Shown piece by piece: positions 4,140 to 61,682 of a stretch of 64,000 bases of DNA. How positions within the stretch are numbered: the stretch's first letter is position 1; every line of letters starts with the position of its first letter. The stretch comes from Gemmatimonadota bacterium (lineage in GTDB: Bacteria; Gemmatimonadota; Gemmatimonadetes; Longimicrobiales; Gaopeijiaceae): NCBI GenBank assembly GCA_028873595.1, contig JAPPOV010000033.1:45155-109154 (forward strand). The letters are read 5' to 3'. The position numbers and the translations under genes were made by a program. The notes below the pieces were generated by a model. It did no database searches, had not been told where the DNA came from, and saw only the letters and a list, made by a program, of their open reading frames with translations.

Positions 4140-6131
4140 CTAGATCACCCGAGGGTTCCCCCCGTCTAGTGGGACCTGGGCACCGGTGGTTTTGGAAAAG
4201 TCGGAGCTCAACAGCGACGTCACCGTAGCTGCGACGTCGGCTGAGGTGAGTTCGACCCCGAGCACGTTGTTCGTCCTGTACTTCTCCGGAGTGACCCCGT
4301 ACTGCTCCGCCCGTGCGGCGATCACGTCGTGATTCCACGCCCCGGTGTCGAACACCGCATGCGGGTGGACCGTGTTGACGCGTACCCCGTGCGGCCCGAG
4401 TTCCAGTGCCGCGACGCGCGCCAGCTGAGTCATGCCGGCCTTGGCCGCCGAATACGCTGCGGCTCCGGGTCCCGGTGCAGGGACGTTCTTCGAGGCGACG
4501 AAGACGACGGAGGGCGAACATCCCAGCCGGAGGAAGGGCGCGGCTGCTCGAAGTACAACCAGGTGACCCGTGAGGTTCACGTTCACCGATTTCCCCCATG
4601 CCTCGTCGGTCATGTCCTCGATGGTCATGCTGTGGGGAAAGAAGCCGGCGTTGCATACCAGGATGTCCAGTCCGCCGAAGCGGGATACGGCTGCCTCGAC
4701 CGATCGGCGGACGTCGAGCGGATCGGTGATGTCCGCTACGACACCGACCCGATCTCGACCCTCGAACACGTCACGAACTGCGGGGTCGATATCCGTAGCC
4801 ACGACAGCCGCTCCGTCATTGAGAAGTGTTTCGGCTACGGCACGCCCGATTCCACCCGCGGCTCCGGTCACGAGCGCGACCTGTCCGGCGAACCGCCGTC
4901 GTGCACCCGCTTTCTTGAGCTTAGCCTGCTCGAGCTCCCAATACTCGACCTCGAACAGCTCGGACTCTCCGACCGGCCTCCATCCCCCCAGCCGCTCCGA
5001 CCATTCGATCGCGCGCATCGTGTGTTGGGCGATATCGACCACGGCTCCGGCTGCTGCCGCCGTATCCCCGAATCCGACCGAGCCGACGTTCGGCCAGACC
5101 ACCCATCGGGGAGCCCGGTCCAGTTCGACGTGCTCGGGACCGGCATTTCGTTCGAAGTAGTCCCGGTATGCGTCGGCGTAGTTGTGAACGGCGGCGGCCC
5201 AGTCGCTTTGGGCGATGAGCGGAACCGGTTTCGTGCGGATGGCATGGTCCGGTGTGAGCGGGCCGCGGCAGGCGATCTCCCCGACTGCTTCCGATCTTGC
5301 CATCCGACGTGCTACATCCGAGCGATCGATACGGGCGATCAGCGGATGTCCGCGCATGTGACCGACCTCACGCCGCAGTGTCGCCAGCTCAACGAGTGAG
5401 TCCGCGTCGAGAGCCTCGCCCTCGCCGGAGACATCATCGAGGCTCTCTCCCAGAGCGCCGGTGGAGGCCAGGTAATCCTCCGCACGACTCACCACGTCGA
5501 TCATGCCCTCGTAGCTCGTGCGAGCCGTGTTTCCGAAGGTGAATACCCCGTGGTTCATGAGAATGAGGCAGTCGATCTTCGACCAGTCCAGCCCTTTGGT
5601 CGCTTCGCTTACCGCTCGTGCCAGCTTGAAGCCCGGCATGACGTAGGGGATGATCAGGGCGCGCTCACCGTACACCTGGCGGATGCGGTCTTCTCCATTC
5701 TCGGTGTTCGTGATCGCGACGACCGCGTCAGCGTGCGTATGGTCGACCCAGTCGAACGGGATGATGGCGTGCAGCACCGCCTCGACGGACGGGGTGGGTG
5801 CATCGGGGTCGAGCATCGCGGCGCGTTGCGTCAGCACCATCTCCCGGTCCGAGATCGACTCGAGCTCGGCCATCTTCTTGAGAACATCCATGCGGACCGA
5901 GGCAAACCCCGCCTCCTCGATGGACCCCAGATCCCATCCGCTTCCCTTCACATGCAGCACGTCGTGTTCCGTTCCGAGCGCGTCGTGCACGGTCGCCTTG
6001 ACCGACGTGTTGCCTCCGCCGTGTAGCACGAGCGACGGGTCCTGTCCCAGCAGGCGGGAGGTGTAGACGCGCAGCGCGAGTGGCGACTCGAGAAATGCTG
6101 CCGCGTCGTGATCGTCCCAGCGAGAGCGCAT
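4140..6131 (-). CDS. Bifunctional class II aldolase / short-chain dehydrogenase
   Basis: A 663-residue fusion enzyme. The N-terminal half (about residues 15-400) is a class II aldolase/adducin domain with the zinc-ligand pattern DHTHADAV and a later NHGVFTFG. The C-terminal 250 residues are a classical SDR with the cofactor motif TGAAGGIG, the NAG segment, and the catalytic Tyr-Lys in YSAAKAG. The architecture matches RhaEW-type proteins that cleave a 1-phospho-ketose such as rhamnulose-1-phosphate and oxidise the lactaldehyde formed. The length is normal (about 680-700). It is the last gene of a minus-strand run with the two Tm-1-like genes (66 bp gap upstream). No kinase or isomerase for rhamnose is in view, so the exact sugar is open. 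Confidence 0.9.
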   Translation of the reverse strand: MRSRWDDHDAAAFLESPLALRVYTSRLLGQDPSLVLHGGGNTSVKATVHDALGTEHDVLHVKGSGWDLGSIEEAGFASVRMDVLKKMAELESISDREMVLTQRAAMLDPDAPTPSVEAVLHAIIPFDWVDHTHADAVVAITNTENGEDRIRQVYGERALIIPYVMPGFKLARAVSEATKGLDWSKIDCLILMNHGVFTFGNTARTSYEGMIDVVSRAEDYLASTGALGESLDDVSGEGEALDADSLVELATLRREVGHMRGHPLIARIDRSDVARRMARSEAVGEIACRGPLTPDHAIRTKPVPLIAQSDWAAAVHNYADAYRDYFERNAGPEHVELDRAPRWVVWPNVGSVGFGDTAAAAGAVVDIAQHTMRAIEWSERLGGWRPVGESELFEVEYWELEQAKLKKAGARRRFAGQVALVTGAAGGIGRAVAETLLNDGAAVVATDIDPAVRDVFEGRDRVGVVADITDPLDVRRSVEAAVSRFGGLDILVCNAGFFPHSMTIEDMTDEAWGKSVNVNLTGHLVVLRAAAPFLRLGCSPSVVFVASKNVPAPGPGAAAYSAAKAGMTQLARVAALELGPHGVRVNTVHPHAVFDTGAWNHDVIAARAEQYGVTPEKYRTNNVLGVELTSADVAATVTSLLSSDFSKTTGAQVPLDGGNPRVI

Positions 6132-58180: not shown

Positions 58181-59224
58181 GTGAACAGATCCCCTGCGCA
58201 TCTAGGTGCGCTCGCCCTTCTTCTGGGAAGTGTGACGCCGATACTCGGGCAGACTGCGGAGGACTTCGATCCGGACCGGGCCATGCTCAGTGACGCGCCG
58301 ATGTTCGACGCGTTCTACCCCACCGAGTACGAGCCGCTGTCCGACGCGTTGCGTGACCGACGAGTCGATGACGACACGGCGCTGCTTGTCCTGAAGCAAG
58401 GCGGGACGACCCTTACGTTCCTCACGATGCAGATGTCGTATCACCACATCGCCCAGGGTGAGTTGGCAGGTGAGCCGTGGATGGTCTCGTTCTGAGTGAT
58501 CTGCAACACGGGGATCGGTCTGGTCCCGCACGTGAACGGAGCGGTTCACACGTTTACAGAGCAGGGGCTCTATGACGGGCTCTTCCTCATGTACGACTAC
58601 GAGTCGGGTACACGCTGGAATCACATGACGGGTGAGGCCGTGTATGGTCCGCTCGTCGGTGAGCGGCTCCCGGTCACGAACGTTCTCCATACGACGGTGG
58701 AGCAGATTCTCGCAGAGGATCCGGACGCGCTGCTCGCCTGGTCCGAGCACCCGTCCGCGATTCAGCGCTCCGGTGATCGAGGTGGAATCCTGAGTGGGCT
58801 TCTCGACCGGATTCTGGACGTCCCGGACATGTTCCCGGCTACCATGGGCAATGAAGACGCTCGTCGGGATCGGATGGAGATGGGCATCGGTATCTGGAAG
58901 GGCGAGCAGGCCAAGTACTATCCGTTGCCGGCGGTGCGGGGTCAGGATGATGCACTCATCGATGACTTCGCGGGTGACCGTCTGCTGATCTTCTATGATC
59001 CGACGGCCCGGGCCCTCGTCGCAGAGGTCACCGCTGCGGACGGGTACGAGTGGGACGATCGTATCCTCCGTCTTTCCAACGGTGATCGAATCGAGGCGGG
59101 CATCCTCTACGATGCGGCCGGACAGCGGAAGGAGCGCAACCGTCCGCTCCAGGTCTTCACACGCTGGTATGGCTTCTCGTTCACCTTTCCTGAGACGCAG
59201 GTGTACGAGAGACCGATCTCCTGA
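58181..59224 (+). CDS. Candidate selenoprotein: exported DUF3179 protein with Sec (TGA) in the CxxC motif
   Basis: A single 347-residue product if the TGA at 58493-58495 (codon 105) is read as selenocysteine. A GTG at 58181 starts a signal peptide (AHLGALALLLGSVTPILGQ). The conserved DUF3179 body follows: GEPWMVSF, TGA, VICNTGIGL, then DGLFLMYDYESGTRWNHMTG and GERLPVTNVLH, to the stop at 59222-59224. Family members I know read FCPLCNTxxxF here, so the TGA replaces the first Cys of CxxC, giving UxxC. A hairpin with loop GGUCU lies 21 nt downstream (separate entry). Both halves are intact and in frame, with no other lesion, which argues against decay. Without recoding, callers split it at 58495/58496. 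The function of DUF3179 is unknown; a periplasmic thiol redox role is inferred. Confidence 0.78.
58509..58528 (+). promoter_or_regulatory. Candidate bacterial SECIS hairpin
   Basis: The RNA CGGGGAUCGGUCUGGUCCCG folds with pairs C509-G528, G510-C527, G511-C526, G512-C525, a bulged G513, A514-U524, U515-G523 and C516-G522. The apical loop is GGUCU (517-521). The loop starts 21 nt after the TGA, within the roughly 16-37 nt range known for bacterial SECIS elements. The heptamer CGGUCUG and a bulge in the stem match the SelB-binding hairpins of formate dehydrogenase mRNAs (E. coli fdhF, Moorella) as I remember them. It lies inside the coding region, encoding TGIGLVP. Confidence 0.72.
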
Positions 59225-61289: not shown

Positions 61290-61682
61290 GTGAGCGAGAC
61301 GCAGTCGAGTCACTTCGAACTCCTCGGTGGCGAGGACGGAATACGGCGACTGGTCGACGTATTCTACGACCGGATGGACAGCGCTCCGGAGGTAGCGGGG
61401 ATCCGTGCGATGCACCCTCCGGATCTGACCTCGTCGAGGGAGAAGCTCTTCCTCTTCCTGGTCGGATGGACGGGTGGCCCTCCCTTGTATGTGCAACGTC
61501 ACGGCCATCCCATGCTGCGCCGGCGACACCTCCCGTTTCCCATCGGTACCGCCGAGAGAGACCAGTGGGTCTGGTGCATGGATCATGCGCTCGAGGAGCA
61601 CGCGATGCCCGACGAACTCCGGGAGCACCTGAGGCTTCGGTTCCGCGCGGTCGCCGATCACATGAGAAATCAAGCTGACTAG
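61290..61682 (+). CDS. Group II truncated hemoglobin
   Basis: A 130-residue truncated globin of the TrHbO type (group II). It begins FELLGGEDGIRRLVDVFYDR, has the group II pattern FLVGWTGGPPLYVQRHGHP with the proximal-His region HGHPMLRRRH, and LPFPIGTAERDQWVWCMDHAL containing the Trp-G8-type position. It binds heme and O2 or other small gases in the cytosol; typical roles are peroxide and NO handling. GTG start 7 bp after the DUF1028 stop. The pairing with an exported Ntn-like protein is unexplained. Confidence 0.92.
   Translation: MSETQSSHFELLGGEDGIRRLVDVFYDRMDSAPEVAGIRAMHPPDLTSSREKLFLFLVGWTGGPPLYVQRHGHPMLRRRHLPFPIGTAERDQWVWCMDHALEEHAMPDELREHLRLRFRAVADHMRNQAD

Follow-up and report, generated by a model that had tools for sequence, protein, structure and literature searches.

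The DUF3179 Gene and Its In-Frame TGA

The window, i.e., the whole 64-kb stretch of DNA analyzed here, carries at positions 58181-59224 of its forward strand a predicted selenoprotein gene of the DUF3179 family (PF11376). The reading frame starts at a GTG codon (58181), continues for 104 codons to a TGA (58493-58495) and is otherwise intact up to a second TGA (59222-59224), which we took as the normal stop; a sequence-only reading of this DNA had described two frames joined by one in-frame TGA with no other defect, and inspection of the sequence confirmed this. With the first TGA read as selenocysteine (Sec, U), the predicted product has 347 residues with Sec at position 105, aligns with 12 relatives and scores 80.3 bits against PF11376 (Pfam gathering score 27), matching from profile position 19. 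The frame 3' of the TGA alone reaches 47.9 bits, with a match from profile position 67, and the frame 5' of the TGA alone has no Pfam match, so that the earlier description of both frames as clearly DUF3179 holds for the 3' frame only. In NCBIfam, nothing scored above cut-off for the proteins P0001, P0084, P0002, P0003 and P0006 or for that of locus L043.

The in-frame TGA occupies the first position of the family CxxC, as had been proposed, and the predicted Sec105 lies in the motif F-U-V-I-C108. Cys108 (TGC, 58502-58504) is the sole cysteine of the chain, is invariant in 13 aligned sequences and is the predicted partner of Sec105. Residues 1-24 (58181-58252) form a predicted signal peptide, judged by eye from the sequence, in which residues 1-3 and 6-18 have pLDDT values below 50 in the structure model.

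Conservation of the TGA across Relatives

We searched the source genome and 58 relatives with PF11376 and obtained 14 stop-bearing matches, all of which contain exactly one TGA and no TAA or TAG. They comprise the window gene, 12 further members of the same branch, in which the TGA column is invariant in the alignment, and one canonical-type DUF3179 (G022:C141, locus L043). In the latter, the TGA (base 4356, reverse strand) stands in the context W-TGA-PLA, i.e., a Sec position without a Cys three residues later, followed by a stem (CCGUG-GUC-CACGG) that was found by eye.

A profile of the branch searched against 395 genomes of the phylum Gemmatimonadota matched 26 of them. All 28 matches scoring at least 378 bits carry a TGA; in one of them a TAG is present as well, and in one another TGA. 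Of five weaker, partial matches (91-155 bits), four lack a stop and the fifth has its TGA elsewhere than at the column. In genome G077, two DUF3179 genes of the TGA type lie in tandem (L096, bases 1771 and 2953, reverse strand), and one of the two matches also contains a TAG. A search of 396 genomes of Acidobacteria at E ≤ 1e-40, a threshold at which weaker Cys forms could escape, matched six genomes, all with a TGA and one also with a TAG. Among 79 loci from named genomes (the best 80 of 114 relatives), the column holds TGA in 75 and only Cys in four (L158, L163, L165 and L169).

Cys versus TGA at the aligned column was then counted over all loci, which, duplicates included, gave 120 TGA, 12 TGC and 6 TGT among 138 positions. 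After exclusion of one row containing N bases and of the 37 matches among 181 that lacked the Sec column, 97 distinct sites were left, with 80 TGA, 11 TGC, 6 TGT and neither TAA/TAG nor a Trp codon at any site; as TGA forms were used to build the query profile, these counts lean towards Sec. The 17 distinct Cys sites comprise seven of the same branch and ten canonical ones. According to record titles, Sec forms occur in eleven phyla, namely Gemmatimonadota, Acidobacteriota, Pseudomonadota, Chloroflexota, Planctomycetota, Myxococcota, Thermodesulfobacteriota, Bacillota, Calditrichota and two candidate phyla, and the TGA form is also present in named strains of Melghirimyces, Paludifilum, Marinithermofilum and Paraliomyxa.

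At the protein level, a database search returned 432 relatives. The 120 that were listed include 24 full-length proteins with Cys, one full-length protein with Trp and 95 of at most 260 aa. The last are about the size of the post-TGA part, as would be expected if the locus encoded two proteins, a truncated N-terminal piece and a C-terminal protein started separately at GTG 58496. However, such pieces are the usual output of gene calling with TGA as a stop, 24 of the 25 listed proteins longer than 300 aa are uninterrupted chains that have Cys at this position, and the motif requires both sides of the TGA, U105 and C108, which makes two separate products very unlikely. A single chain with Sec is the preferred reading, and the 95 short entries among the 120 listed point to a widespread environmental protein that has been split by gene callers.

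A Conserved Stem-Loop Downstream of the TGA

The candidate SECIS hairpin lies at 58511-58527 and starts 15 nt after the TGA. Its stem (58511-58516 paired with 58522-58527) has six pairs, one of them G-U, and its GGUCU loop (58517-58521) is closed by a C-G pair at a distance of 21 nt from the TGA; position, loop, closure and spacing all agree with the sequence-only reading. A lower pair, C58509-G58528, with the bulged G58510 accounts for the "one bulge" of that first description. Taken alone, the window hairpin is hardly beyond chance: compared with dinucleotide shuffles, three folds gave z values of -0.84, +0.93 and -0.12, and compared with synonymous-codon shuffles of the window gene (locus L001) the p value was 0.12 for the best stem at any position and 0.012 for the 36-nt minimum energy. 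Searching Rfam over the 64-kb window, we found no match that reached its gathering score.

We replaced single-sequence folding and a free stem search, both of which are weak, by a test of pairs at fixed positions. With the T of TGA numbered 1, the six pairs 19-35 to 24-30 were fixed from the window hairpin and counted at every site, and the null distribution was obtained from synonymous codon swaps following each gene's own usage. The 80 TGA sites form 473 of 480 possible pairs, with all six formed in 73 sites, against an expectation of 381.5 (sd 6.1), and none of 1000 shuffles reached the observed value. The excess persisted when the sites were thinned to below 60% identity (49 sites, 289/294 pairs, z 11.5) or below 45% identity (12 sites, 69/72 pairs, z 5.9), with none of 2000 shuffles reaching the observed count in either case. 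When the partners were shifted by 1 to 3 bases in the 49-site set, only 95-170 of 294 pairs remained. In addition, pair 21-33 is seen as six standard pair types. As a comparison of sequences, the codon-swap test shows that the stem-loop after the TGA is maintained through codon choice, and the same TGA with its hairpin is present in related genomes.

Among the Cys relatives, no clear excess of stem pairs is apparent from the same counts, since the seven same-branch Cys sites form 28 of 42 pairs (25.5 expected, reached by 139 of 1000 shuffles) and the ten canonical Cys sites 28 of 60 (25.6 expected). The earlier and weaker free search for the best stem gave p < 0.05 in 19 of 80 TGA sites versus none of 17 Cys sites, and by energy in 9 of 80 versus 2 of 17. 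One Cys site, L178:3319, retains all six SECIS pairs, and for this reason a hairpin alone is no proof of decoding.

The loop follows R/U-G-K-N-U in 78 of the 80 TGA sites, with G26 in all 80, U27 in 61 and U29 in 78. GGUCU itself is found in 24 sites and is replaced elsewhere by AGUUU, AGGAU, AGUAU, AGUCU and similar sequences. While the six-pair stem is conserved, the lower pair and bulge of the first description are not general, as pair 17-36 is formed in 27 of 80 sites. The loop also constrains the protein sequence: all 80 Sec forms have S, G, R or W at residue +8, versus 18 of the 24 full-length Cys proteins, the other six having Q, A, K or T (p 9e-5, for related and hence non-independent sequences).

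These results bear on the possibility that the locus is a pseudogene, in which a nonsense mutation happens to be followed by a hairpin. The window hairpin is indeed no stabler than most of its dinucleotide shuffles; it is conservation across loci that takes the hairpin beyond chance. A pseudogene is extremely improbable given the identical TGA column at 80 distinct sites from eleven phyla (by record title), without a single TAA or TAG, and a stem maintained through codon choice. The gene is very likely not broken.

Selenocysteine Machinery in TGA-Bearing Genomes

The source genome encodes a tRNA-Sec with the anticodon UCA (62.1 bits, gathering score 47), SelB (321 bits, cut-off 242), SelA (527 bits, cut-off 268) and SelD (388 bits, cut-off 125); the genes selA, selB, selC and selD, whose absence would have spoken against the sequence-only reading, were all found. 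The selD gene (locus L196, G000:C50:34625-35545, reverse strand) itself has one in-frame TGA, in the N-terminal motif HGAGUACK, and because of this TGA SelD is likely a second selenoprotein of the same genome. The models for tRNA-Sec, SelB and SelD give matches below cut-off in all 14 control genomes, and therefore only matches above cut-off were counted; tRNA-Sec was counted at 62 bits or more, the weaker matches, a few of them above the gathering score, being treated as other tRNAs.

Within the source genome and its 58 relatives, TGA-type DUF3179 occurs in 11 genomes. Each of the 11 has at least one of SelA, SelB and tRNA-Sec, with all three over the thresholds in seven and one or two in four, and TGA-type DUF3179 is found in none of the 16 genomes that have none of the three. 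For the relatives only, this amounts to 10 of 42 genomes with machinery versus 0 of 16 without (one-sided p 0.028). We also surveyed SelA in 48 more distant genomes, representing 48 of the 79 loci; the 31 loci left aside were for the most part additional Gemmatimonadota or the second locus of a genome. Of the 45 genomes with the TGA form, 41 have SelA, versus none of three Cys-locus genomes (Fisher p 0.002), the latter being defined by the locus found and not by a genome-wide search for a TGA copy. The four TGA genomes without a SelA match are G416, G422, G423 and G445. Nearly all of the TGA genomes are metagenome-assembled (MAGs).

Another possibility is that the TGA is decoded as a different amino acid, e.g., Trp after reassignment of the codon, or by plain readthrough. 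One database protein, P0002, falls within the Sec forms and carries Trp in place of Sec. A gene caller that translates TGA as Trp would produce this residue, and we consider the Trp of P0002 probably to be a gene call made under such a code. Against reassignment, the window gene itself terminates in TGA, its genome has tRNA-Sec(UCA), SelA, SelB and SelD, Cys codons occupy 17 of the 97 distinct sites and a Trp codon none, and SelA goes with the TGA form. Decoding as anything other than Sec therefore has a very small probability.

Sec and Cys Forms within the Branch

A tree quickly built from 117 proteins (85 with Sec, 31 with Cys and 1 with Trp) requires eight Sec/Cys changes once the Trp row is excluded, and the starred branches force at least four changes for the Cys label. 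As the tree has several long branches and 34 of its 114 inner branches are open, the count is rough and we draw no direction of change from it. Sec and Cys copies lie side by side in Marinithermofilum and Paludifilum, and in Thermoactinomycetaceae adjacent Cys and Sec copies were located at L178 (bases 3319, 4277 and 5344) and L164 (bases 3281 and 4232). The Cys copy L178:3319, with its complete set of SECIS pairs, looks as if it had switched recently. As the same branch also contains Cys forms, 24 of them full-length among the 120 listed proteins, Sec is not essential everywhere.

Predicted Structure and Gene Neighbors

A structure model built from 79 sequences has a mean pLDDT of 91.4, whereas an earlier model from 13 sequences was poor (71.9). 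Foldseek found no match in the PDB at E ≤ 0.001 with either model, and a sequence search of the PDB found no relative (best E 0.32). Profile comparison with Rieske proteins gave weak matches, over 17 columns with E 0.097 and, when the second half of canonical DUF3179 was used, over 66 columns with E 0.0023 and a probability of 12.6; these are too weak for us to claim kinship. The Rieske [2Fe-2S] ligand set CxH...CxxH, invariant in 18 Rieske sequences, was not found in the window chain, which in contrast has one Cys (C108) and one Sec only. We also considered U105 as a stand-in for the first Rieske Cys ligand and dropped the idea, as the aligned ranges put that ligand, at what we take to be its position, nearer residue 116. 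A predicted fold that may be Rieske-like and lacks the Rieske ligands is possibly a new feature of the family. In addition, an uncharacterized protein of the giant virus Indivirus ILV1 (A0A1V0SD44) aligns with the DUF3179 model across 225 columns with E 1.1e-6.

Gene neighbors were taken as 113 of about 130 predicted proteins around 34 loci, called with a simple ORF caller, with two window entries replaced by predicted genes. The commonest family, AhpC-TSA, has only five members among the 113, and gene context therefore gives no general function. In the window, a gene for a bacterial-like globin (PF01152, 134 bits) lies at 61290-61682 on the forward strand.

Proposed Function and Comparison with Known Systems

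Because of the TGA column, the hairpin kept through codon choice, the sel genes and the association of SelA with the TGA form, we regard 58181-59224 with high confidence as one gene for a 347-residue DUF3179 selenoprotein with Sec105, a predicted exported redox protein; the selenoprotein claim of the sequence-only reading is strongly supported by the shared TGA column, the conserved SECIS and the full set of sel genes. SelB would bind the loop, which has an invariant G and in most sites the form R-G-K-N-U, and bring Sec-tRNA(UCA) to the UGA at 58493-58495; in the absence of SelB or under selenium shortage, the product would end at residue 104. Once exported, Sec105 and Cys108 could pair as a selenenylsulfide/selenol-thiol couple in a beta-rich domain, at the turn that joins the predicted strands 98-105 and 110-114, and this couple may trade electrons with a thiol protein as partner or with a small oxidant.

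It is tempting to speculate, although we hold this broader picture to be rather doubtful, that a large, mainly Sec-using DUF3179 branch from eleven or more phyla represents an exported redox enzyme with a Rieske-like scaffold devoid of Fe-S ligands, a Sec-Cys couple and repeated Sec/Cys switching with gain and loss of the SECIS. As the branch is present in named strains, some of which (Marinithermofilum and Paludifilum) have both copies together, the function of this uncharacterized family and the benefit of Sec over Cys are directly testable.

The sequence-only reading had proposed a new selenoprotein family, and this proposal has to be withdrawn. In the parts available to us, the selenoprotein tables of two papers, PMC9312934 (2022), which cites Zhang and Gladyshev (2007), and PMC13188914 (2026), already include DUF3179 (PF11376) with the motif UxxC/T, the available text of PMC9230427 contains the word DUF3179, and NCBI names P0084 and P0105 "DUF3179 domain-containing (seleno)protein [Longimicrobiales bacterium]." It is strongly supported that the window protein is a new member of this known family. 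The available parts of PMC9312934 and PMC13188914 hold no description of the branch, its SECIS or its fold, and a search of openly licensed literature (CC0, CC BY and CC BY-SA) returned nothing joining DUF3179 with Rieske or selenoprotein with Longimicrobi. What may be new is the size of the Sec-rich branch, its conserved SECIS and the repeated Sec/Cys switching.

Compared with the DUF3179 selenoproteins of these tables, as far as their available parts go, the window protein belongs to the same Pfam family and its U105-V-I-C108 fits UxxC/T, a likeness by family and motif. With respect to DUF3179 at large, the profiles of 13 branch members and 15 canonical proteins match with E 3e-25 over 240 columns, whereas the scores against PF11376 set them apart, at 68-86 bits for branch members versus 184-371 bits for near full-length canonical DUF3179 from the source genome and its relatives. 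Formate dehydrogenase H of E. coli is decoded by a SelB/SECIS system with a stem-loop directly after the UGA within the coding region. Unlike that element, the branch has loops that vary and a six-pair stem without a conserved bulge; like it, it has an intragenic stem-loop just 3' of the UGA, and shares GGUCU in 24 of 80 sites.
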